Notes: generated by a model not told the origin, from the letters alone. Counted from the first letter of the stretch, positions 15,531 to 29,380 are shown. The stretch is 40,626 nt of DNA from Gemmatimonadota bacterium (GCA_024641745.1 JAHECL010000009.1:1-40626); one strand, 5' to 3'. Numbers and translations: made by a program.

Positions 15531-16808
15531 ATGTTCGATCCGAAGACCCAGTGTGTCGTCGTGGTGGGCGCGCAATGGGGCGATGAAGGCAAGGGGAAGC
15601 TGGTGGACGTGCTCTCGGAGCGCGCCGACTGCGTGGTGCGCTACCAGGGCGGCGCCAACGCCGGGCACACGGTGGTCATCGGCGAGGAACAGTTCATCCT
15701 CCAGCAGATCCCGTCCGGCATCCTGCATGCGGGCGCCCGGTGCGTCATCGGCAACGGCGTCGTGCTCGACCCCGAGACCCTCTTCCAGGAACTCGACGGG
15801 CTCACGCAGCGCGGCGTCGACATCACGGGCCGTCTCTTCGTGTCGGAGCGCGCCCACCTGGTGCTCCCCTACCACAAGCTGCTCGACGCGGCGAGCGAGA
15901 AGTCCCAGAAGATCGGGACCACCGGCCGCGGCATCGGGCCCACGTACGAGGACAAGTACGGACGCCGCGGGGTGCGGGTGATCGACCTGCGGGACGGCAA
16001 GGCGCTGCGGGCGTTGCTGGAGGTCCGGCTCGACCGCGCCAACCGTCTCCTGGCCATGATGGGCGCCGGACCGGCCTCGCTCGACGAGCACCTGGCGCTC
16101 CTGGAGCGCCTGGCGCCGCGCCTGCTCCCCCTGGCGACCGACACCGGGCTGCTGGTGCACCGGGCCCTCCGCGCGGGCAAGCGGGTCCTCCTGGAGGGCG
16201 CGCAGGGCGCGCTGCTCGACGTCGACCACGGCACCTACCCCTACGTCACCAGTTCCAACACGACGGCCGGCGGGGCGTCGATCGGGTCGGGCATCGGTCC
16301 GACGGCCATCGACGGCGTGCTCGGCGTCGTGAAGGCGTACACGACGCGGGTGGGCAACGGGCCGCTCCCGACCGAGGCGATGGGCGAGGGGGGGAAGGCG
16401 CTGCAGCGGATCGGCGGCGAGTTCGGGGCGGTCACCGGGCGCCCGCGGCGCTGCGGCTGGTTCGACGCGAACGTGGTGCGCTACTCGGTCCGGGTCAACG
16501 GGCTCACCGGGCTCGCGGTGACCAAGCTGGATGTGCTCGACACCTTCAGCGAGATCCCGGTCGGCACCGGGTATCGCCTCCACGGGGAGCTGACCGAGGA
16601 GCTGCCCGCGGAAGTGGAGCAGCTGGAGCGCGTCGAGCCGGTCTACGAGACGCTGCCGGGCTGGAAGAAGTCCACCGAGGGCGCGCGGCGCATGGCCGAC
16701 CTTCCCCCGGAGGCCCGCGCCTATCTCGACCGGCTGCAGGACCTCGCCGGGGCCCCCATCCGCTACGTGAGCGTGGGAACCCGCCGGGACCAGATCATCG
16801 AGGTGTAG
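15531..16808 (+). CDS. purA: Adenylosuccinate synthetase
   Basis: Joins IMP and aspartate with GTP in AMP synthesis. The protein is 425 aa from ATG 15531, chosen because gagggg lies 5-6 bases upstream; TTG 15501 and GTG 15519 are weaker alternatives. The P-loop region reads [11 protein letters not shown], followed by [49 protein letters not shown] and the C-terminal [15 protein letters not shown]. All are family signatures. Confidence 0.98.
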
Positions 16809-16875
16809 GCGATGGCGTCCAGTGTTCTCCTGCGGTTCCGGGGCCCTTTTCACTCCTGATTTCGTGAGCTGGCAG

Positions 16876-18207
16876 ATGGCCGACACTACCCTCATGGACA
16901 AGCTCGTGTCGCTGTGCAAGCGGCGCGGATTCGTCTTTCAATCCTCCGAGATCTACGGTGGCCTCGGCTCGGTCTGGGACTACGGGCCGCTCGGCGTCGC
17001 GCTCAAGAAGAACGTGAAGGACCGCTGGTGGCACGCGATGGTCCAGGCACGGGACGACATCGAGGGGCTCGACGCCGCCATCCTGATGCATCCCAGGGTC
17101 TGGGAGGCCTCAGGGCACGTGTCGGGGTTCACCGACCCGCTGGTGGACTGCAAGACCTGCAAGGCGCGCTTCCGCGCCGACCAGCTGGAGGACGCGGCCT
17201 GCCCGCAGAAGCCGAGCAAGAAGGCGGGCCAGCACACCACCTGCGAGCTGACCGAACCGCGGCTCTTCAACCTCATGTTCAAGACCTTCATGGGGCCGGT
17301 GGAAGAGTCGGCCTCGGTGGTGTACCTCCGTCCCGAGACGGCGCAGGGGATCTACGTCAACTACCTGAACGTCCTCCAGGGCTCCCGGCAGAAGGTGCCG
17401 TTCGGCATCGCGCAGATCGGCAAGGCGTTCCGGAACGAGATCACCCCCGGCAACTTCATCTTCCGGACCCGCGAGTTCGAGCAGATGGAGATGCAGTTCT
17501 TCGTGAAGCCCGGCAGCGACGGCGAGTGGTTCGAGCGCTGGCGCGAATGGCGGATGGCGTGGCACCACGCCCTCGGCCTCAACCCCGCCAAGCTCCGCTG
17601 GCACCAGCACGGCGAGGGCGAACTGGCCCACTACGCCAAGGCGGCCTACGACATCGAGTACGAATTCCCCTTCGGCTGGAACGAGATCGAGGGGATCCAC
17701 AACCGGACCGACTTCGACCTGCAGCGTCACCAGGCGGCGTCCGGCAAGAAGCTCGATTATTTCGATCAGCCCAACAACGAGCGGTTTGTCCCGTTCATCG
17801 TGGAGACCTCCGCCGGGGCCGACCGGGTCACCCTCACGGCGCTGGTGGACGCCTACCGCGAGGAACAGGTGGAGGGGGACACCCGCGTCGTGCTCGGCTT
17901 TCACCCGTCCATCGCGCCGATCAAGGCCGGCATCTTCCCGCTCGTCAAGAAGGACGGCATGCCGGAGTTCGCCACGAAGCTCTACCACGACCTCAAGCCG
18001 CACATTCCGCTGTTCTACGACGACAGCGGCGCCGTCGGCCGGCGCTACCGCCGGATGGACGAGGCCGGCACGCCGTTCTGCATCACCGTGGACGGGCAGA
18101 CCCTGACCGACGGCACCGTGACGGTGCGCCACCGTGACTCGATGGCGCAGGACCGGGTGGCGGTGGATCAGCTGAAGGGGTGGTTGAAGGAGCGGACGGA
18201 GGGCTGA
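16876..18207 (+). CDS. glyS: Glycyl-tRNA synthetase, single-chain class II type
   Basis: Charges tRNA-Gly. The protein is 443 aa from ATG 16876 ([29 protein letters not shown]), the usual N terminus of the alpha2 enzyme; the track start at 16822 adds an unrelated leader. Class II motif 2 is seen as [25 protein letters not shown] in parts, [14 protein letters not shown] lies before it and SAGADRVTL is motif 3. A Cys-rich insert (CKTC...C...C) near residues 90-120 may bind zinc. This is the archaeal/eukaryotic-like form rather than the alpha2beta2 GlyQS. Confidence 0.96.
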
Positions 18208-18236
18208 GCGCCGGATGCCGGAACGCCGGCCGGCGC
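18208..18236. other. Dyad between glyS and PLP enzyme gene
   Basis: gcgccgg (18208-18214) and ccggcgc (18230-18236) form a 7-bp stem over a 15-base loop in the 50-base gap. There is no T-run. It could be a weak terminator or an RNA stability hairpin. Confidence 0.35.
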
Positions 18237-18257
18237 TGAAACCGGAAAGGGATCGTC

Positions 18258-19526
<1,269 letters not shown>

Positions 19527-19569
19527 GCACGCGCGGCGGGGCGGCGGGGGCGGGAGTCAGCGGGGCCGC

Positions 19570-20271
19570 ATGAGGCTGGACCCGTTTCGTGCGATGGTCC
19601 GGACGATGAGTGCGGAGGTGCCCGCCGAGTTCCTCGACGGCGTCTCCGAGATCACGGTGTCGCCGCGGGCCGTCCCGCATCCCACCAGGACAGAGATCTT
19701 CACGCTGGGCCACTGCATCCCCTTCCACGCCGGCGAGACCGGCGCCCCCGACGACATCCAGAGCCGGATCGTCCTGTATCACGGTTCCTTCCTGGCGCTG
19801 GCGGAGCTGGACGAGGGTTTCGACTGGCGGACCGAGGCCTGGGAGACGCTCACCCACGAACTCCGGCACCACCTCGAGTGGCGGGCGCGGGAGGGGGCGC
19901 TCGAGGCGTTCGACGAGGCGGCGGAACAGAACTTCGCCCGGATGGACGGGGACCCCTTCGACCCGCTCTTTCACCTCGGGGGTGAGGCGGTGGCGGAGGG
20001 CGTCTTCCAGGTGGATGACGACTTCTTCATCGACATGGTGGTGCGGCGCCTGCCGGACGCAGTGTCGTTCGGATGGCACGGCCGCGCCTACCGGGCGGTG
20101 GCCCCGACGGGGGCCACGCTGCCCGCCTTCCTGTCGGTCGAGGGGGTGGCGGACCCCCCGCCGGGGGAACTGGTGCTCGTGATTCGCCGCCGGACGGGGC
20201 TCCTGGAGCTCTTCCGGTCGCGGGCGCCGTTCACCGCCACCGTATCGGCGAATCCCGCGGGGAGCGATTAA
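19570..20271 (+). CDS. Zincin-like metallopeptidase family protein
   Basis: Putative metalloprotease with an HExxH motif, HELRHHLE, at residues 96-103 (His96, Glu97, His100; possible third ligand Glu103 or Asp115). The N-terminal half resembles the small 'metallopeptidase family' proteins of about 120 aa. The 233-aa length leaves a C-terminal region of about 100 residues that I do not recognise. There is no signal peptide. The stop codon TAA lies inside the -10 box of the next gene. The function is unknown. Confidence 0.7.
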   Translation: MRLDPFRAMVRTMSAEVPAEFLDGVSEITVSPRAVPHPTRTEIFTLGHCIPFHAGETGAPDDIQSRIVLYHGSFLALAELDEGFDWRTEAWETLTHELRHHLEWRAREGALEAFDEAAEQNFARMDGDPFDPLFHLGGEAVAEGVFQVDDDFFIDMVVRRLPDAVSFGWHGRAYRAVAPTGATLPAFLSVEGVADPPPGELVLVIRRRTGLLELFRSRAPFTATVSANPAGSD

Positions 20272-20274
20272 CTT
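20269..20274 (+). promoter_or_regulatory. Candidate -10 box (TAACTT) for the propeller gene cluster
   Basis: TAACTTTG overlaps the preceding stop codon and fits the Bacteroidetes-like TAnnTTTG form. Predicted +1 is near 20281, 26 bases before the ATG. No TTG-type -35 is visible at 16-18 bases, so support is only moderate. Confidence 0.4.
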
Positions 20275-20306
20275 TGGAGCCTGCACTTACGCGCTGGAGG
20301 GATGGC

Positions 20307-21491
20307 ATGCGGGGCTGCTTGCTGCTGGGACTGGGACTGGGACTGGGACTTATGGCCGCGCCGCTCCCGGCGCAGACCGCCACCGGGCCGTACCAGGTCG
20401 GCGTGGTCAGCGAGTCGGGGGACATCGTCACCTGGCTGCGACCGGAGGGCCACACCCTGGTCGTCGACCGTGTGGTGCCGGTCGGCGTCATGCCGGCCGA
20501 CATCGACGGGCCCCACAACATCACCGTCTCCGCCGACCAGCGCTGGTATTTCATCTCCATCGCGCACGGCACCCCCTATGGCACGCTCTGGCGCTTCGAC
20601 GCCGCGAACGACACCGTCGCCGGGCGGGCCCAGCTCGAGTACTTCCCCACCACGATCTCGGTGACCCCGGACGGTGATTTCGCCTTCGTCGCCAACTCCG
20701 ACTTCCACGGCGACCATCCGCGGGTCAACACGATCACCGCGGTGTACACGCCGGACATGCAGACCATCACCGACATCGCCGCCTGCGACATGCCGCACGG
20801 GGTGAAGGTGAACCATGCCGGCACCGCGGTGTGGATCTCCTGCATGCACAGCGACGAGCTGCTGCAGGTCGATCCCGCCACGCTCGACGTGGTGCGCCGG
20901 GCGTCGACCGGCGCCGGGATGGCCATGCCGGGGAGCTCGATGGTCGGCATGAATCACGGCGCGATGGCTCCCACGCCCGCGCCGACCAGTCCACCGGCGC
21001 CGGCTGTCGCCTCGGCCGGCGCGGACCGGATGGTCCCTCCCTCCCCCAAGGTGGACAAGGAGTGCGCGCCCACCTTTGTCAGCGTCTCCGCCGACGATCG
21101 GACCCTGTATGTCGCCTGCAACCACAAGGGGACGCTGCAGGTGTGGGATGCGGAAGCGCTGACGATGACGAAGGAGATTCCGGTTGGCGCCGGCGCCTAC
21201 AACGTGGAGCCCTCGCCCGACGGCCGGCTGGTGGTGGTGACCAACAAGAAGGCGCAGAGCGCCAGCATCGTCGACGCGAAGACGCTCAAGGAGCTGGCCC
21301 GCGTCCCCACCACGAAGAAGATCGTCCACGGCGTGGCCTTCAGCCCCGACAGCCGGTACGCCTACGTCACGCAGGAGTCGATCGGTTCCGATCCCGGTGC
21401 CGTCGACGTGATCGACCTGACCACGCTCACCACGGTGAGCACGACGCCGCTGCCGGCGCAGCCGACCGGCATCGCCATTCTCAAGCGCTGA
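20307..21491 (+). CDS. Secreted YVTN/YncE-like beta-propeller protein
   Basis: A 394-aa exported protein from ATG 20307, with ggaggg upstream. The signal peptide MRGCLLLGLGLGLGLMAAPLPAQ contains an LG dipeptide run coded by a hexanucleotide repeat, with cleavage probably after LPAQ. The mature part shows blade-like repeats: ISVTPDGDFAFVANS, VSVSADDRTLYVACN, VEPSPDGRLVVVTN and VAFSPDSRYAYVTQE, as in YncE/lactonase propellers. Near residues 205-235 an insert rich in Met, His, Pro and Ala (MVGMNHGAM) could bind metal. It leads a four-gene run; the ligand is unknown. Confidence 0.85.
   Translation: MRGCLLLGLGLGLGLMAAPLPAQTATGPYQVGVVSESGDIVTWLRPEGHTLVVDRVVPVGVMPADIDGPHNITVSADQRWYFISIAHGTPYGTLWRFDAANDTVAGRAQLEYFPTTISVTPDGDFAFVANSDFHGDHPRVNTITAVYTPDMQTITDIAACDMPHGVKVNHAGTAVWISCMHSDELLQVDPATLDVVRRASTGAGMAMPGSSMVGMNHGAMAPTPAPTSPPAPAVASAGADRMVPPSPKVDKECAPTFVSVSADDRTLYVACNHKGTLQVWDAEALTMTKEIPVGAGAYNVEPSPDGRLVVVTNKKAQSASIVDAKTLKELARVPTTKKIVHGVAFSPDSRYAYVTQESIGSDPGAVDVIDLTTLTTVSTTPLPAQPTGIAILKR
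20325..20348 (+). repeat. Hexanucleotide tandem repeat (ctggga)4 in a signal sequence
   Basis: Four perfect copies of ctggga code for the L-G run of the propeller's signal peptide. A change of one copy adds or removes two residues without a frameshift, altering the length of the hydrophobic core. Confidence 0.92.
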
Positions 21492-21502
21492 GCGGACTCG
21501 CC

Positions 21503-21775
21503 ATGGTACACGAGAAACAGACGACGCTGACCGGCCCGGAGGTGATCGGGCGCGCCAAGGCCTTCTTCAGCCAGCGGATGCCGCAGTCGGCGGCGTTCCC
21601 GGAAGCGGAAGGCCCGGGCTTCGTGACGCTGCGGGGGCAGGGCGGGGAGGAAATCGCCCTCGCCGCCTTCGCCGCCGACGGCGCCACCCGGGTCCGGGGC
21701 TCGACGCTCTTCTTCGACCAGGCGCTGGCGCGCTTCCTGTCCACGCTGCCGGAACCCGCGGTGGTGACGACATGA
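21503..21775 (+). CDS. Small conserved-looking protein of unknown function (90 aa)
   Basis: I do not recognise this protein. It starts MVHEKQTTLTGPEV with a helix-prone region (residues 12-27). A beta-rich stretch (GFVTLRGQGGEEIALAAFAA) and a final helix (DQALARFLSTLP) follow. There is no signal peptide or membrane segment. It begins 11 bases after the propeller gene and overlaps the ubiquitin-fold gene by 4 bases (ATGA), so the two are probably made together. Absence of Cys and composition like its neighbours suggest an ordinary cytosolic protein, perhaps a partner of the next gene product. Confidence 0.75.
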   Translation: MVHEKQTTLTGPEVIGRAKAFFSQRMPQSAAFPEAEGPGFVTLRGQGGEEIALAAFAADGATRVRGSTLFFDQALARFLSTLPEPAVVTT

Positions 21776-22035
21776 GCGAAGACGCGCGCCTGGTCCGGGT
21801 CACCGTGCAGGACACCTGGGACACGGTGGAATTGAAGATGCCGGCGTCGGCGTCGGTGGCCGAGCTGAAGCTCCGTGCGCTGGTGATGATGCACGTCGCG
21901 AAGGATCCGGGTGGCTACGAGGTCAAGTATCGCGGGGCGTCGCTCCGGGACGAGACCGCATCGCTGGACGCGGCCGGGGTGGTGGACAACGCCGCGCTCA
22001 TCGTGCTTCCGATCCGGCGCCGCCCCGTCCGGTAG
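21772..22035 (+). CDS. Ubiquitin-like beta-grasp fold small protein
   Basis: An 87-aa protein whose pattern follows ubiquitin: strand VRVTVQDTWD, strand TVELKMPAS, helix SVAELKLRALVMM, strand YEVKYRGASL, then the LDAAGVVDNAALIVLPIRRR ending. That ending mirrors the last part of ubiquitin (L-S-D-Y-N... L-H-L-V-L-R-L-R). It ends RRRPVR, with no Gly-Gly, so classical conjugation is not predicted from this gene product. Similar folds occur in EsaB/YukD of type VII secretion. It overlaps the 90-aa gene and lies 27 bases before a deacetylase-family gene. The fold assignment is by eye. Confidence 0.7.
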   Translation: MSEDARLVRVTVQDTWDTVELKMPASASVAELKLRALVMMHVAKDPGGYEVKYRGASLRDETASLDAAGVVDNAALIVLPIRRRPVR

Positions 22036-22062
22036 TTCCATCCTCACGCACCGGCGGGCCTG

Positions 22063-22959
22063 ATGGCCGTCGCGGTCTATCACCATCCCGGCTGCGCCCT
22101 GCACGACGCCGGTCCGGGCCATCCCGAAGCGCCGGGCCGGATCCTCGCCGTGCTCGAGGCGCTGGCCGCCCTCCCCGCCGTCCCGCTCCACGCCGCGCAG
22201 CCCGCCTCGCCCGACCAGCTGCTGGCCGTCCACACTGCCGACCATCTGGCCCTGCTCACGGCGACCCATGCCGCCGGCGGCGGGGCGCTCGACGCCGACA
22301 CCATCATGAACGCCCACAGCTGGGACGCGATGCTCGGTGGCGTCGGCGCCGTCCTGGAGGCCGTCGGGTACGCCCACGCCGGGCAGGGGCACGCCTTTGC
22401 CGCGGTGCGGCCCCCGGGCCACCATGCCTCGGCCGGTCGGGCCATGGGGTTCTGCCTGGTCAACAACGCCGTCCTCGCCGCCCGACGGTTCCAGTCGCTG
22501 GGCCGCCGACGGGTGCTCATCGTCGACTGGGACGTGCATCACGGCAACGGGACCCAGGCGCTGGTGGAGCACGATGCATCCGTGCGCTTCGTGTCGTTGC
22601 ACCAGTCGCCCTGGTGGCCGTTCACCGGGGCCGCCGGCGAGCGGGGTGTGGGCAACGTCTTCAACGTGCCACGGCCGCCCGGGCTGGCGCCGGAGCAGTA
22701 CGTGCGCGATCTCTGGCTCGCCCTCGAGGCCGCCACGAAGGACTGGACGCCCGAGGCGCTGGTGGTGTCGGCGGGCTTCGACGCGATGGCGGGGGACCCC
22801 CTCGGCGGGTTCACCCTGGCACCGCGGCATTACCGGATCCTGACGGAGCGGCTGCGGGAGCGCATGCCCGACGTGCCGATCGTCGGCACGCTGGAGGGCG
22901 GCTACGTGCCCGGTCGCCTCGCCAAGGGGGTGGCGGCGCACGTCCTGGCACTGGGGTGA
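22063..22959 (+). CDS. Histone deacetylase/acetylpolyamine amidohydrolase family protein
   Basis: Zinc-dependent amidohydrolase of the HDAC/AcuC superfamily. The protein is 298 aa. His120-His121 lie in RPPGHHA; the metal ligands Asp157 and His159 are in DWDVHHGNGT and Asp240 in SAGFDA; LEGGY near the C terminus is conserved. A substrate-side segment HQSPWWPFTGAAGERG is typical of the bacterial class II-like members. It is the last gene of the propeller-unknown-ubiquitin-fold run. The target (acetyl-lysine, acetylpolyamine or another acyl amide) cannot be set from motifs. Confidence 0.93.
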   Translation: MAVAVYHHPGCALHDAGPGHPEAPGRILAVLEALAALPAVPLHAAQPASPDQLLAVHTADHLALLTATHAAGGGALDADTIMNAHSWDAMLGGVGAVLEAVGYAHAGQGHAFAAVRPPGHHASAGRAMGFCLVNNAVLAARRFQSLGRRRVLIVDWDVHHGNGTQALVEHDASVRFVSLHQSPWWPFTGAAGERGVGNVFNVPRPPGLAPEQYVRDLWLALEAATKDWTPEALVVSAGFDAMAGDPLGGFTLAPRHYRILTERLRERMPDVPIVGTLEGGYVPGRLAKGVAAHVLALG

Positions 22960-22979
22960 GCCGTGCACGGCCTGACTCC

Positions 22980-23007
22980 TTGCCGCTGACGCCGGGATCG
23001 GTAGGTT
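22980..23007 (+). promoter_or_regulatory. Promoter of the dipeptide epimerase-priA unit
   Basis: TTGCCG (22980-22985), a 16-base spacer and TAGGTT (23002-23007), followed by tcg. Predicted +1 is near 23014: 7 bases before GTG 23021 and 34 before ATG 23048. It fits the TTGnnn/TAnnTT pattern of trpS and purA. Confidence 0.55.
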
Positions 23008-23047
23008 TCGTGACTCTGGCGTGTCCTCCATCGAACTGAGTGTCTCC

Positions 23048-24064
23048 ATGCTGCGCCTCCAAGCCGAGTATCTCGCCCTCCGCACCAGGCACCCCTTCAT
23101 CATCGCGCGGGGCGGCCAGAGCGACTACCGCACCGTCTGGATCCGGCTGACCGATGCCGACGGGAACGAAGGCTGGGGTGAGGCGGCGCCCAACAGGTAC
23201 TACGGCGAGACGGCCGAGACCGTGATGGAAACGCTCCAGGTCTACGCCCAGCACCTCCCGGCCGATCCCTTCGACCTCGAGGAGACCGACCGCCGGCTCG
23301 AGACCGCGCTGCACGGGAACCCCTCCGCCCGGGCTGCCCTCTCCGCCGCCATGCATGACCTGGCCGGCAAGCGGCTCGGTGTGCCGGTCTACCAGATGTG
23401 GGGGCTCGACCCGGCCAGGGCGCCGATGTCCACCTTCACCATCGGCATCGACACCCCCGAGCGGATCCGGATGAAGCTGCACGAGGCCGCCGAGTATCCG
23501 ATCCTGAAGATCAAGCTGGGGAGCGACCGGGATCTCGAGATCCTGCGGACTATCCGCGACGTGACCGACCGCGAGCTCCGGGTGGACGCCAACGCCGGCT
23601 GGACGGTGAAGCACACCCTCCGGATGCTGCCGATCCTCGAGGAGTTCGGGGTGACGGTCCTCGAACAGCCGCTGGTCCCGAGTGACCTGGAAGGATTCGG
23701 CATCATCCGGCGCGCCGCGACGATCCCGCTCATCGCCGACGAGTCGTGCAAGACGGTCAGCGACATTCCCGGCCTGGTCGGGCAGGTGGACGGCATCAAC
23801 ATCAAGCTGGCCAAGTGCGGCAGCCTCCGGGAGGCGATCCGGATGATCGCGACGGCGCGGGCGCATCACATGATGGTGATGGTCGGGTGCATGATCGAGA
23901 GTTCGCTGGCCATCACCGCGGCGGCGCATGTCACGCCCCTGGTGGACATCGTGGACCTCGACGGTGCCGCGCTGCTCGCCGAGGACCCGTTCGTCGGCGC
24001 CACCATCGCCGGCGGACAGCTGCGCCTCCCAACCGGACCGGGGCTCGGCGTCACGTCGCGATGA
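23048..24064 (+). CDS. Dipeptide epimerase, enolase superfamily (L-Ala-D/L-Glu epimerase-like)
   Basis: Probably epimerises dipeptides such as L-Ala-D-Glu from murein turnover. From ATG 23048 the protein is 338 aa. The acid/base lysines are in KIK (Lys154, Lys156), the metal ligands are Asp180 (VDANAGW), Glu206 (LEQPL) and Asp231 (ADESC), and the second catalytic Lys is Lys253 (NIKLAK). Positions match the E. coli enzyme closely. GTG 23021 would add nine residues and sits 7 bases from the predicted +1, so it is a real alternative. Its TGA overlaps the priA ATG. Confidence 0.92.
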   Translation: MLRLQAEYLALRTRHPFIIARGGQSDYRTVWIRLTDADGNEGWGEAAPNRYYGETAETVMETLQVYAQHLPADPFDLEETDRRLETALHGNPSARAALSAAMHDLAGKRLGVPVYQMWGLDPARAPMSTFTIGIDTPERIRMKLHEAAEYPILKIKLGSDRDLEILRTIRDVTDRELRVDANAGWTVKHTLRMLPILEEFGVTVLEQPLVPSDLEGFGIIRRAATIPLIADESCKTVSDIPGLVGQVDGINIKLAKCGSLREAIRMIATARAHHMMVMVGCMIESSLAITAAAHVTPLVDIVDLDGAALLAEDPFVGATIAGGQLRLPTGPGLGVTSR

Positions 24065-26481
24065 CCGATCGGTTTGCGCAGGTCGCGCTCCCGCTCCCCC
24101 TCGCCACTCCCTACACCTACCAGATCCCCGACACCCTGGCCGACCGCGTGGCGGCCGGGGCCCGGGTCGTCGTGCCGGTACGCGGCCGCGAGCTGATCGG
24201 CATCGTCACCGGCGTGGACGTCTCCCCGCCCGACGTCACCGCCCGTCCCATCCTCGCCACCCCCGACGACGCGCCCGCGCTTCCCCCCGCCCTGCTGAAG
24301 ACGGTCGAATGGATGGCGGGCTACTACGGCGCGCCGATCGGGCTGGCCCTGAAGGCGGCGCTCCCGGCGGGTCTCTGGGGCAGTTCCACCGTCGTCGTGG
24401 AGGTGGCCGATGCCCGCCGGGTGCCCGGAGGGACCGGCGCCGAGATCCTGCAGTGGCTGGAACGGAAGGGGGGCAGCGCGCCGGTACACGCCGTCGCGCG
24501 CGGCCTCAAGCGCGGGGTCTGGGACGCCGTCGACCGCCTGGCGCGGGTGGGGGCGGTCATCCTCCGCATCGTCCCGCCCGACACCGGTGGTGGCGCCGTG
24601 ACCGAGCGGGTGCTGGTGCTCCCCGACCAGCGCCCGACCCTGCTCGAACGGCAGGCACTGTTCGACGGCAAGCCACGGCAGCGGGCGCTGGTCGAGGCGG
24701 TGGAGCAGCTGGGAGGCAGCGCCGCGGTGGCGCACCTCCGCACCCAGCTCGGCTTCAGCAGCGCCCTCATCAGGGCGCTCGTGACGGGCGGCCACGCGAG
24801 CATCGACGAGGTCGAACGGGTCCGCGATCCGTTCGCCGGCGAGGCGGGGACGCCGCCCCCCGATGCGCTCTCGGCGGACCAGCAGGGCGCGCTCGAGGGC
24901 ATCGAGGCGCTGCCCGCGGGCGAAGGGGCGCTCCTCTTCGGGATCACCGGGAGCGGGAAGACGTTCGTCTACCTCGAGGCGATCCGTCGCGGGCTGGCCC
25001 ACGGTCGCGGAGCCATTGTCCTGGTCCCCGAGATCGGCCTGACGCCGCAGACGGTGCGTCGGGTCCGTGGCATGTTCGGCGACGACGTGGCGGTGCTCCA
25101 CAGCGGACTCTCCGACGGGGAACGCGCCGACGCCTGGCGGGCGCTGCGTCGGGGCGACCGGCGGGTGGCGGTCGGGGCGCGCTCCGCGATCTTCGCGCCG
25201 ATCGAGGGGCCGGGCGTGATCGTGGTGGACGAGGAGCACGAGGCGACATACAAGAACGGCGAGACGCCGCGGTACCACGCCCGCGAGGTGGCGGCGGTCC
25301 GCGCCCGTCTGGAGGGGGCCCGGCTGGTGCTCGGCAGCGCCACGCCGTCGCTCGAGAGCTGGTCCGATGCGGGGGAGGGGAGACGGCTGCGCCTGATCGG
25401 GCTGCCGGAGCGGGTGGGAGCGGGCCGGCTTCCCGCCGTCGAACTCGTCGACCTCCGCGTCGCGCCGAGGGTGCGGGGCGCCGGGGCGATCCCCTGGTCG
25501 GACACCCTCGACGCCGCGGTCTCCCGCGTCCTGGTGCGGGGCGAGCAGGCGATGCTCTTGTTGAACCGGCGCGGGTTCGCCGCCTTCCTGCAGTGTCCCG
25601 ACTGCGGCCACGTCCCCGAGTGCCCCTCCTGCAGCATCAGCCTCACGGTGCATCGGTCACCGCCGGCGCTGCGGTGCCACTACTGCGCCCACGAGGCGCC
25701 GCTCACGGAGGCGTGCGCCTCCTGCGGGCACCCGGTGGCGCAGATGCGCGGCATCGGGACGCAGCAGCTCGAGCAGTGGATCGCGGAACGATTTCCCGAT
25801 GCCCGGCTCGCGCGGATGGACATGGACACCACCACGACCAGGTGGGCCCACCACCGGATCCTCGGCACGGTGGAGCGGCGCGAGGTGGACCTGCTCCTTG
25901 GCACGCAGATGATCGCCAAGGGACTCGATTTCCCGAACGTCACGCTGGTCGGCGTGGTCGACGCCGACACCGCGCTGCACCTCCCCGACTTCCGGTCGGC
26001 GGAGCGCACCTTCCAATTGATTGCGCAGGTGGCTGGCAGGGCGGGGCGGGGGCCGAAGGGGGGCAAGGTGATCGTGCAGACCCGTCAGCCGACGCACCAC
26101 GCCCTGGTCCGGGCATCGGACCACGATGCGCGGGGGTTCCTGACCGACGAGCTGGCCCTCCGGGGCTCGCCGCCCTATCCCCCGCTGATTGGCCTGGTCA
26201 ACCTGGTGGTGTCGGGCCGTGAGGAGCCGGCCGTGGGGCGCGTGGCCGCGGAGGTGGCTGAGTGGGCCGCAGCGCTCGCCCTGAGGCATGATCTGGACCT
26301 GACCGTCCTCGGACCAGCCCCCTGCGCGCTGGCGCGGATCAAGGGGCGCTGGCGCTGGCATGTGGCGCTCAAGGGGGACGGAGGGACGCTCGGGCGGGTG
26401 GTGCGGTACGCGGCGAGGAGGCTGGCGGGCTCAGGAGAACCCCGGGTCACGATTGACCGTGACCCGGTGAGTCTCCTCTAG
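24061..26481 (+). CDS. priA: Primosomal protein N' (replication restart helicase PriA)
   Basis: 3'-5' helicase that reloads the replisome at stalled forks. The protein is 806 aa from ATG 24061; the longer track ORF runs into the epimerase gene. Order: the N-terminal DNA-binding domain (QVALPLPLATPYTYQIP), Walker A GITGSGKT near 294-301, the DEEH box near 389, the zinc-binding region CPDCGHVPECPSCS and CHYC / CASCG near 511-555, then helicase motifs DLLLGTQMIAKGLDFPNV and QVAGRAGRG. It is 4 bases overlapped with the epimerase gene. Its 3' end contains a large hairpin. Confidence 0.97.
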   Translation: MTDRFAQVALPLPLATPYTYQIPDTLADRVAAGARVVVPVRGRELIGIVTGVDVSPPDVTARPILATPDDAPALPPALLKTVEWMAGYYGAPIGLALKAALPAGLWGSSTVVVEVADARRVPGGTGAEILQWLERKGGSAPVHAVARGLKRGVWDAVDRLARVGAVILRIVPPDTGGGAVTERVLVLPDQRPTLLERQALFDGKPRQRALVEAVEQLGGSAAVAHLRTQLGFSSALIRALVTGGHASIDEVERVRDPFAGEAGTPPPDALSADQQGALEGIEALPAGEGALLFGITGSGKTFVYLEAIRRGLAHGRGAIVLVPEIGLTPQTVRRVRGMFGDDVAVLHSGLSDGERADAWRALRRGDRRVAVGARSAIFAPIEGPGVIVVDEEHEATYKNGETPRYHAREVAAVRARLEGARLVLGSATPSLESWSDAGEGRRLRLIGLPERVGAGRLPAVELVDLRVAPRVRGAGAIPWSDTLDAAVSRVLVRGEQAMLLLNRRGFAAFLQCPDCGHVPECPSCSISLTVHRSPPALRCHYCAHEAPLTEACASCGHPVAQMRGIGTQQLEQWIAERFPDARLARMDMDTTTTRWAHHRILGTVERREVDLLLGTQMIAKGLDFPNVTLVGVVDADTALHLPDFRSAERTFQLIAQVAGRAGRGPKGGKVIVQTRQPTHHALVRASDHDARGFLTDELALRGSPPYPPLIGLVNLVVSGREEPAVGRVAAEVAEWAAALALRHDLDLTVLGPAPCALARIKGRWRWHVALKGDGGTLGRVVRYAARRLAGSGEPRVTIDRDPVSLL
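26433..26477. terminator. Hairpin in the 3' end of priA, shared with the convergent gene
   Basis: ccgggtcacg (26442-26451) and cgtgacccgg (26458-26467) are exact 10-bp inverted repeats over a 6-base loop. Outer arms aggaga and tctcct extend the structure. It lies in the last codons of priA, just before the convergent stop of the DUF1254 gene 5 bases after priA. No T-run follows on either strand, so efficiency is uncertain. Confidence 0.5.
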
Positions 26482-26486
26482 GACGA

Positions 26487-28112
26487 TTACTTCACCAGCT
26501 CGACTTCGGTCGGCCGCCAGCTCTTGTCGAAGAACGACTCCAGCGGGCTGTACAGCCGAAGGATCGTGAACCAACCCTTGGCCGGATCGGTCTGGATCCA
26601 GTTGCCACGATCCACCCCGGCAGGCTGCGTCGGGCCGAAGTAGATGGTAGTCGAGCCATCGGGGCTCGCCTTGGCCGCCGGTGACGGATAGCTCTGGCTG
26701 CCGGCACGGGGATAGAGCTGGGGGGTGGCGAGCATCGAGCGGGTCTGGTTGTCATACAGAGTGAACGACCAGAACGCCCGGGCGGGGATGTTGGGCGGAA
26801 GGGTCACCTTGTACGTCTTGGCGCCGTCGAACGGATTCTTGTTGGCGTCGAGGAAGCCCATCAGGTACTGCGAGCCGACGCCGGGGATCCGCATGATCAT
26901 GCCGGGTGAATCGAGCGTGTAGCCGTAGTAGAAGGCGGTGCGCGACGCGAGCGTGCGCGCGCCGGTGGGGGGCAGCGGCTTGAACATCCCTTCCTTGGTG
27001 AACATCGGGGGGGGCGTCTCGAAGAAGGCGCCGCCCTCCCAGAGCATGCTGCTCCATGCGGAGCCGGGGTAGTACGACCAGCCGAGCGACTCGAACGGCC
27101 GCCAGTTCAACACCCGGCCGGTCGCGTTCCCGACAGCGGCCGCCTCGGTGAGGAGCTTCTTCATTCGGGCGTCAGGATTGAACGGCTTCCCCTTCACGAT
27201 CCCGATGGCCGCCATCTGGCCGGCGAGTTCCACATCGTAGCTGGTGGCCGGCTCTTCCTGCACGGTGGCGTTGATCATCTCAAAGAACGAGTAGTCGCTG
27301 GGCGGGATGGTGTTGAAGACCCGATTCGAACCCTCGATGAATTTCATCTCGGGAACCGGCGGATTCTGCGCGATCCGGACCGTCCCCTCGAGCGCGGTAG
27401 CGATGCTCGTTCCCTCGGCTCCTGGCGTGTAGGGATAGATCTTCATGTACTTCTTGATCATGGCGACGGCCGGCTTCGGGTCGTTGTCGACCAGGTAGGC
27501 CCGGGCGGCGTACAGTGCATGTACGGTGCTCGACCGGGCGATGTAGAAGCCGCCTTCGGGCAGCGGGCCATCATAGCCCGGAGGCAGGATGAGATACCGG
27601 CCGCCCTCTCCGCGATCAGGACCGGGGGTGCCGATGTCGATGATCCAGGAGAACCACATGTCGTTGATGGTGCCGACCGACTTGGGCGGCTGCTCAATGA
27701 CGATCGGACCCTTGGTGAGGTCAAGGATGGAGAGATAGTAGATGGTGTCTGCATTGCCGGTCAGGAAGACCGATTTCGAGTTCATCAACTCCGAGAAGAT
27801 GACCACGTCGTTGCCCGCCGCGCCGAGGCTGTAGAACCCCGTCCGCAGGGCATATGCGGACGCGCCCCGAAAACTGTTGTTATAGACGTTGAGGGCGTTC
27901 GTAAAGGCCAGCGCGGAGTACACCGCGTCGGCGGTCGCGGCCGTCGGGGCGCCGTCCTTGAACTCGAGGGTGCCGAACCGGCTGTCCATCTTGGCCGGGG
28001 CGCCGAGAGACTGGACTGGGGCGGGGGGGAGGGCGGGAGCTTGGGCCTCGATGGCTCCTGCGGTGGTTGCGACGAGAATGAGTGAGAGGGTCGTGCTGAG
28101 CGTCGTTCGCAT
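26487..28112 (-). CDS. Secreted DUF1254/DUF1214 domain protein
   Basis: A 541-aa exported protein of unknown role. The signal peptide is roughly residues 1-24 (MRTTLSTTLSLILVATTAGA). The N-terminal half carries the DUF1254 pattern with NTIYYLSILDLTKGPIVIEQPP-like text, reading GNADTIYYLSILDL here. The C-terminal DUF1214 has ARAFWSFTLYDNQTRSML, then GSTTIYFGPTQPAGVDRGNWI and GWFTILRLYSPLESFFDKSW. It converges with priA, 5 bases apart. The start is divergent from the TIGR00300 gene. Family members are often near sulfatases, and one lies 3 kb away on the same strand. Confidence 0.9.
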   Translation of the reverse strand: MRTTLSTTLSLILVATTAGAIEAQAPALPPAPVQSLGAPAKMDSRFGTLEFKDGAPTAATADAVYSALAFTNALNVYNNSFRGASAYALRTGFYSLGAAGNDVVIFSELMNSKSVFLTGNADTIYYLSILDLTKGPIVIEQPPKSVGTINDMWFSWIIDIGTPGPDRGEGGRYLILPPGYDGPLPEGGFYIARSSTVHALYAARAYLVDNDPKPAVAMIKKYMKIYPYTPGAEGTSIATALEGTVRIAQNPPVPEMKFIEGSNRVFNTIPPSDYSFFEMINATVQEEPATSYDVELAGQMAAIGIVKGKPFNPDARMKKLLTEAAAVGNATGRVLNWRPFESLGWSYYPGSAWSSMLWEGGAFFETPPPMFTKEGMFKPLPPTGARTLASRTAFYYGYTLDSPGMIMRIPGVGSQYLMGFLDANKNPFDGAKTYKVTLPPNIPARAFWSFTLYDNQTRSMLATPQLYPRAGSQSYPSPAAKASPDGSTTIYFGPTQPAGVDRGNWIQTDPAKGWFTILRLYSPLESFFDKSWRPTEVELVK

Positions 28113-28282: not shown

Positions 28283-29380
28283 ATGGCCACTCCGAAGTAC
28301 ATCGCCCCCGACTTCACGAAGCCCCCCTTTGCCGGGGCTCCCGCGGCGCAGTTCGCGCCCCTGCCCGCCGATGGGGTGCTTCCGGAAGGCTTCTTCTCGA
28401 CCTCCAACCTCCCGACCTACGTGCACCTGGGCGGCGGGAAGTGGGTCATGCCCACCCGGCCCCGGATGGACTGCGTCATCGTCCGGCAGGGGGCGGGGTT
28501 GTCGGTGGCCGAGCCGCGCCGGCTGACGGCGGGGGCGGAGATCGTGATGGGGGAGGCGGAAGACGGCAGCCAGGGGGTGTACGTGCACAGCGCCGGGTTC
28601 CTGGCCGGCGCGCACAGCGCCAACGAGTTCCGGTTCATGTCCACCGAGGTGAGCCGCGAGCGCCCCGTCAATTACGAGGAACTGGCGGCGCGCCTCGGCG
28701 AGGAGAAGCAGCGCGGCGGTTACACCATCTGGGTGGTGGGGCCGGCGCTGGTGCACTCCCGGGCGCGGGCCGACTTCGAGTGGTTCATCCGGAACGGGTA
28801 CGTCCAGGCTGTCCTCGCCGGCAACGCCGTGGCGGTGCACGACATCGAGGCCGCCATCTTCGGCACCACCCTCGGGATGTCGAATACCGGGAAGCCCACC
28901 GAGGGCGGACACGGGCTTCACATGCGCGCGATCAACCGGGTCCGGGCGGCGGGTTCCATCGAGGCGGCGGTCGGCTCGGGGCTGATCACGACCGGCATCA
29001 TGCACGCGCTGGTGACGTCGAAGGTGCCCTACGTGCTGGCCGGCTCGATCCGTGACGACGGACCGCTGCCCGGCGTGGTAGGCAACGTCCTCGATGCCCA
29101 GGACGCGATGCGGGAGCATGCGGTGCGCGCCACCGGCGCCATCTTCGTGGCGACCGCGCTGCACGCCATCGCGGTGGGCAACATGCTCCCCGCCTTTCAC
29201 ACCCACTATGACGGCGTGCCAAGCGAGCTGATGACGATCTGCGTCGACCAGACCGAGTTCGTGGTCAACAAGCTCAAGGATCGCGGCACGCACCAGGCGT
29301 ACGGCGTCGTCACCAACGCGCAGGATTTCATGCACGTCCTCCGGCTCTACGTGGAAAAGTGGGAACAGGCTACCCGCTAG
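28283..29380 (+). CDS. TIGR00300 family protein (ornithine cyclodeaminase/ArgZ-AgrE C-terminal type)
   Basis: A 365-aa NAD-dependent-type protein of the LOR/SDH-related TIGR00300 family. Characterised relatives act as ornithine cyclodeaminase in archaea and as the C-terminal half of the cyanobacterial arginine-degrading enzyme ArgZ/AgrE. Visible blocks: LPEGFFSTSNLPTYV (N-terminal LOR-like domain), AGNAVAVHDIEAAIFGTTLGM near 181-200, GGHGLHMRAINRVRAAGS, LAGSIRDDGPLPGVVGNV near 252-268 and HAIAVGNMLPAF. The full N-terminal guanidino-hydrolase domain of ArgZ is absent. The start is a near-leaderless ATG. It overlaps the next frame by 22 bases. Confidence 0.85.
   Translation: MATPKYIAPDFTKPPFAGAPAAQFAPLPADGVLPEGFFSTSNLPTYVHLGGGKWVMPTRPRMDCVIVRQGAGLSVAEPRRLTAGAEIVMGEAEDGSQGVYVHSAGFLAGAHSANEFRFMSTEVSRERPVNYEELAARLGEEKQRGGYTIWVVGPALVHSRARADFEWFIRNGYVQAVLAGNAVAVHDIEAAIFGTTLGMSNTGKPTEGGHGLHMRAINRVRAAGSIEAAVGSGLITTGIMHALVTSKVPYVLAGSIRDDGPLPGVVGNVLDAQDAMREHAVRATGAIFVATALHAIAVGNMLPAFHTHYDGVPSELMTICVDQTEFVVNKLKDRGTHQAYGVVTNAQDFMHVLRLYVEKWEQATR

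Follow-up and report, generated by a model that had tools for sequence, protein, structure and literature searches.

A conserved, translationally coupled pair of a 90-residue protein and a ubiquitin-fold protein beside an HDAC6-like deacylase gene in Gemmatimonadota

Background

YukD/EsaB (PF08817) is the ubiquitin-like protein of the T7SSb of Bacillota. YukD has been reported not to be covalently conjugated, and TmoB, a non-conjugated ubiquitin-like subunit of toluene monooxygenase, sits on the catalytic subunit of that enzyme (PMC1779556). By analogy, these non-conjugated ubiquitin-fold accessories appear to be the closest functional counterparts of the 87-aa protein described here (Ubl), which is encoded in a 40,626-nucleotide stretch of DNA (the window; JAHECL010000009.1:1-40626) together with a 90-aa protein (U90) and a histone deacetylase-family enzyme (HDAC). 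Gemmatimonadota are a phylum of soil and water bacteria; the genome that contains the window contig measures 2.67 Mb, and its close relatives belong to the Gemmatimonadales.

YukD/EsaB, the nearest Pfam family, is likewise a small stand-alone ubiquitin fold without Gly-Gly. However, the partner genes of Ubl are those for U90 and HDAC rather than EssC/YukC, its C-terminus is a basic RR(R/Q)PVR sequence, and these genomes contain no WXG100 protein. TmoB is similarly non-conjugated and encoded beside an enzyme, but the enzyme class differs, and the contact with the enzyme that is known for TmoB is hypothetical here. MoaD/ThiS proteins (PF02597) share the ubiquitin fold, and a U90 paralogue precedes moaD in two other families; unlike Ubl, MoaD has a GG C-terminus and matches PF02597. 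No ThiS (PF02597) match was obtained for the window Ubl in our Pfam search, and MoaD and ThiS are encoded elsewhere in the same genome. The E1/E2/JAB/Bil conjugation operons also contain a ubiquitin-fold protein, and Ubl gave a weak profile match to BilA structures, but the Ubl locus has no GG, no such enzymes among its annotated neighbours and no PADLOC match; the last result also led us to set aside a defence system. Our literature searches found no paper joining DUF2604 with ubiquitin-like proteins, nor one joining Ubl, histone deacetylase and Gemmatimonadetes.

Results and discussion

Organization of the locus

The genes under study are listed in Table 1. The original prediction, made from the window sequence, described four packed genes separated by 11, -4 and 27 bases, and both the coordinates and the gaps (11 bp between propeller and U90, -4 bp (ATGA) between U90 and Ubl, 27 bp between Ubl and HDAC) were reproduced. 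All four frames are open and show the expected GC-frame signature, and the dN/dS values of U90, Ubl and HDAC against two congeners (0.09-0.23) indicate purifying selection within the genus. These genes turn out to be the middle of a longer tight co-directional run (15531-26481) of about ten genes, none more than 61 bp from the next, namely adss, glyRS, CGL, zincin, propeller, U90, Ubl, HDAC, epimerase and priA, so that compactness alone is uninformative. The distinguishing mark of U90-Ubl(-HDAC) is its conservation in relatives, not its gene spacing.

Table 1. Features of the U90-Ubl-HDAC locus, in window coordinates
Feature	Position	Strand	Description
Propeller gene	20307-21491	+	Exported beta-propeller protein; Cytochrom_D1/YVTN-type repeats
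U90 (90-aa ORF)	21503-21775	+	No Pfam/NCBIfam family
Ubl (87-aa ORF)	21772-22035	+	Ubiquitin-fold, YukD-like
U90 stop/Ubl start overlap (ATGA)	21772-21775	+	Identical 4-bp overlap in 75/80 independent loci
HDAC gene	22063-22959	+	HDAC6-like class II zinc deacylase

Conservation of the U90-Ubl pair

The pairing was surveyed in 80 independent named Gemmatimonadota loci retrieved by a U90 profile. Because they were chosen through the U90 sequence, these loci cannot measure the absence of U90, which is instead given by searches of 150 sampled genomes of the phylum; the 80-locus set shares some assemblies with a second set of 37 order-level relatives. U90 is directly followed by Ubl in all 80 loci, with the 4-bp overlap in 75, and the pair is nearly universal among the 37 relatives. 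In the sampled phylum genomes U90 was found in 101 and Ubl in 94 of 150, each normally as a single copy and adjacent to the other. The U90-Ubl pairing is well supported.

The gene for HDAC lies within 1.2 kbp of the pair in 77 of 79 loci, usually no farther from Ubl than 60 bp or a single small TM gene, and is the commonest downstream gene. Neighbourhood conservation had been named as the check on the original prediction, and for U90, Ubl and HDAC it is borne out by these counts, as are the tight coupling of the 87-aa to the 90-aa protein and the zinc deacylase following them. The propeller, which in the original prediction might share only the promoter, is indeed a mere neighbour: its gene lies immediately upstream of U90 in only 28 of 72 loci, and it is a variable element outside the conserved unit.

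Several lineages separate the three conserved genes. In families f7 and f11, which fall outside the order, U90 forms a bicistron with a Ubl relative (Ubl') and without HDAC, flanked on both sides by opposite-strand genes in L128, L130 and L285. In L044 and L184 U90-Ubl is kept and the linked HDAC is gone. In genus g46 (L122-L124) U90 leads directly into HDAC, and Ubl was not detected; a TGA counted inside U90 of g46 by the genome search is read as the U90 stop codon, since the called genes are open. These cases mark U90-Ubl as the core and HDAC as a frequent but separable companion, and the U90-Ubl unit is older than its link with HDAC. Regional synteny is also high (glyRS in 52 of 66 and priA in 72 of 76 loci), and HDAC adjacency is thus weaker evidence than the U90-Ubl overlap.

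In a residue-coupling analysis with about 100 sequence pairs, U90-Ubl could not be told apart from U90-HDAC, and its difference from the priA control was slight. The excess over shuffled pairings is attributed to shared phylogeny, and in those controls that were run, the comparison with other-gene pairs was not decisive.

Ubl

The AlphaFold2 model of Ubl, built with 37 relatives aligned, has the arrangement bb-a-bb-b with a pLDDT of 84.5. Ubiquitin and ubiquitin variants dominate its Foldseek matches in the PDB (E 2.4e-7, TM about 0.8), and a Ubl sequence profile also matched ubiquitin in the PDB. By this modelling Ubl is a true ubiquitin (beta-grasp) fold, in agreement with the beta-grasp fold originally expected of the 87-aa protein. 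The best single Pfam match of the window Ubl is YukD (PF08817; E 2.3e-5), with 25.5 bits against a gathering cut-off of 27; at E <= 0.01, YukD was matched by 17 of the 37 relatives and ubiquitin by four.

Residues W16, K52, G55 and R83 of Ubl are invariant. A Gly-Gly C-terminus, reported as missing when the window was first read, is absent from all 118 distinct Ubls. Instead, the strongly conserved extreme C-terminus is, in the Gemmatimonadales, a basic RR(R/Q)PVR sequence (RRRPVR in the window) with about four basic residues among the last eight, and most Ubls of this order have no near-terminal glycine that cleavage could expose. Ubl' of families f7 and f11 ends in ..FEG or ..FRG (e.g. ..RFEG), that is, in a single C-terminal Gly.

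U90 and its wider family

Searches with U90 against Pfam, NCBIfam, PADLOC and PDB sequences gave no significant consistent match, and a plasmid search matched nothing. The only PDB matches of the U90 profile were partial ones, of 29 residues, to polyubiquitin constructs, and we read their scores as repeat artefacts. Ten residues (A18, F21, F22, R44, G45, G47, G48, E49, E50 and F78) are invariant across the 37 relatives and mark the motifs AxxFF and RGxGGEE (RGQGGEE in the window). AlphaFold2 predicts a beta-alpha-beta4-alpha structure (pLDDT 91.3), which Foldseek places nearest to KA1/CIPK-regulatory-like domains (TM 0.72) and more weakly to helix-grip folds, all at E >= 1.5e-3, a likeness at the level of fold only.

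A broader U90 profile detects one or more members, frequently two, in 232 of the 246 genomes of the class. Paralogue B (U90B) lies directly upstream of moaD-moaE-moaA in families f6 and f7 (L126, L127, L129, L131, L133 and L135); U90B and moaD overlap by 4 bp in L129, L133 and L135, against 7 bp (L131) and 40-121 bp (L126, L127) in the other loci. Paralogues C and D have no Ubl alongside. Paralogue C of the window genome (G000:C91:29714-29974; L268) overlaps the end of the myo-inositol-1-phosphate synthase gene and adjoins a CDP-alcohol phosphatidyltransferase-like gene, an arrangement that recurs in relatives, and paralogue D has a DsbA-like gene on one side and a DEAD/DbpA helicase gene on the other. 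We considered whether the second U90 copy of Gemmatimonadales also stands upstream of moaD, but it is absent from 20 moaD regions and sits after inositol-1-phosphate synthase.

In three of the five gene settings a U90-like protein is coupled to a ubiquitin-fold protein, a pattern suggesting that binding of ubiquitin folds may be an ancestral property of the U90 family. This idea is testable through U90B-MoaD, because the biochemistry of MoaD is understood. It could be extended to a bolder scheme, which we regard as speculative and rather improbable as a whole, in which the U90 family would consist of proteins dedicated to ubiquitin folds (Ubl, the Gly-ending Ubl' and MoaD, served by different paralogues) as their chaperone, shield or docking subunit, and the Gemmatimonadales U90-Ubl with its basic tail would be a regulatory subunit of the HDAC6-like deacylase, no conjugation being involved.

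The linked deacylase

HDAC matches Hist_deacetyl (PF00850) in Pfam (E 2.2e-72) and HDAC6 in a search of the PDB (E 9e-81). The zinc ligands, His pair and Tyr (H120, H121, D157, H159, D240 and Y281) are invariant in all 34 linked orthologues. The gatekeeper residue, L247 in the window, is Leu in 32 and Ile in two of these 34, the column lying seven positions past the last zinc ligand, with numbering deduced from zebrafish HDAC6 and HDAC10. A Glu gatekeeper marks the HDAC10-like polyamine deacetylases (PMC5454378), and we therefore rejected such an assignment for HDAC. With all catalytic residues and a Leu/Ile gatekeeper, the window enzyme looks, from its sequence, like an acyl-lysine and not an acetylpolyamine deacylase. 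In these same features it resembles the HDAC6 catalytic domains, bacterial HDAH and the class II deacylases of PF00850; it differs from them as a single 298-aa domain that lacks ZnF-UBP and is linked to U90-Ubl. Many genomes encode further HDAC-family proteins away from the locus, and the Ubl-linked HDACs form a distinct, higher-scoring group. In L042 and L057 the frame of the linked HDAC is split in two, by an assembly error or as a pseudogene.

In 48 of 79 loci, though not in the window, Ubl and HDAC are separated by a gene for a small two-TM/coiled protein. In L030, L033, L037, L043 and others this intervening protein, of 88-94 aa, is predicted to contain two TM segments and has a charged helix at its C-terminus. 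Six loci of family f2 (L059, L060, L062, L137, L139 and L140) carry a MoxR-DUF58-BatA-TM-DUF4159 operon after Ubl, and in several f2 genomes, where the locus extends far enough, this 7-kbp MoxR-vWA operon separates Ubl from HDAC. We also considered this operon as the true partner of Ubl and discarded it: only some f2 loci have it after Ubl, and in other genomes DUF4159 is encoded away from the locus, with one copy on another contig of the window genome.

Possible function of the U90-Ubl module

We favour, with a probability of roughly 0.5, the reading that U90 and Ubl form a non-covalent module that was recruited in the Gemmatimonadales as an accessory to the deacylase. The 4-bp translational coupling would ensure matched synthesis of the two proteins and probably their co-assembly into a heterodimer; that they form a physical complex is quite likely. 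With no Gly-Gly and no conjugation genes alongside, Ubl would not be a conjugated modifier. Its role may rather be that of a protein-docking subunit, on the model put forward for YukD/EsaB or TmoB, with the conserved W16/K52 surface and the RR(R/Q)PVR tail available for contacts. In the Gemmatimonadales the module shares an operon with the HDAC6-type acyl-lysine deacylase, often with the small two-TM protein between them, and U90-Ubl would most likely position or regulate the enzyme; in loci with the TM protein this would take place at the membrane. The conserved operon suggests that U90-Ubl could act on HDAC, a step that we hold only tentatively. The original prediction had proposed a complex of the two small proteins serving as substrate, adaptor or regulator of the deacylase; the fold, the pairing and the HDAC that follows agree with it, but the role assigned to the complex is weakened by the separability of U90-Ubl and HDAC.

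That separability also lends substance to a different reading, in which U90-Ubl is an independent module with a target of its own and HDAC is a passenger, carried along with a conserved stretch of the chromosome. The stand-alone bicistrons of f7 and f11, the synteny of glyRS and priA across the segment, the MoxR operon intervening in part of f2 and the fact that L044 and L184 have lost the linked HDAC all fit such an arrangement, whereas the near-constant presence of HDAC at so short a distance from Ubl does not, and propeller, CGL, zincin and epimerase, which come and go among relatives, are less tied to the pair. We regard a passenger HDAC as a serious though not the expected outcome. A further doubt concerns U90, which might be a general small ligand- or lipid-binding domain whose pairing with ubiquitin folds is coincidental. 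The Foldseek likeness to KA1/CIPK-regulatory and helix-grip folds and the settings of paralogues C (beside inositol-1-phosphate synthase and the phosphatidyltransferase-like gene) and D (with the DsbA-like/DEAD helicase pair) are consistent with this, but members of the family are tightly coupled to three ubiquitin-fold proteins (Ubl, Ubl' and MoaD), and chance coupling to all three is improbable because genes for ubiquitin folds are few in any one genome. We consider a coincidental pairing unlikely.

It is far less probable still that Ubl is a covalent modifier, attached through a processed tail or through a C-terminal carboxylate activated without Gly-Gly, with HDAC acting on the conjugates or on lysines. 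The true ubiquitin fold, the single C-terminal Gly of Ubl' and the conserved extreme C-terminus would suit a modifier; the complete lack of GG and, in most Gemmatimonadales Ubls, of a glycine that cleavage might expose speaks against it, as does the absence of E1/E2/JAB-like genes from the annotated neighbour clusters. A search for E2- and JAB-like genes elsewhere, proposed at the outset, was informative only in part: the E2 profile UQ_con had no match, but it matched no control genome either, and the absence of E2 is therefore weakly shown; in the window genome Prok-JAB gave no more than a weak match. Membership of Ubl in a type VII secretion system, as a YukD/EsaB component, has almost nothing left to recommend it. 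YukD is the best single Pfam match and is shared by nearly half of the relatives, but the window member scores under the Pfam gathering threshold, and no FtsK/EssC-like ATPase was found among the annotated neighbours. This membership is rejected because WXG100 is absent from all 41 genomes searched, the B. subtilis control being positive.

Since the U90-Ubl genes are usually single-copy and translationally coupled across an order, and more loosely so in related orders, the pair is unlikely to be dispensable. It is not described in the libraries and the few papers that we searched, and the data suggest a widespread two-protein module in Gemmatimonadota. If the favoured reading is true, Ubl would represent a new lineage of non-conjugating ubiquitin-like proteins with a conserved C-terminal signature of its own, and would link a ubiquitin fold to HDAC in bacteria, where the targets of HDACs are mostly unknown.

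Other genes near the locus and in relatives

In some relatives (G014:C47:38970-39661, G020:C116:27455-28140 and G016:C7:33087-33769) Prok-JAB directly adjoins a domain of the ThiS/MoaD family and marks a sulfur-carrier or Ubl-like locus distinct from this one. In the window, the zincin gene (19570-20271) gave a weak match to Zincin_1 (PF06262) with a HELRHH motif, and is frequent in the same neighbourhood of relatives. A DUF1254/DUF1214 protein is encoded at 26487-28112 on the minus strand, opposite to the co-directional run, and positions 28283-29380 encode an ArgZ-like arginine dihydrolase C-terminal region (PF21570/PF21571), which is found near priA in many relatives as well.
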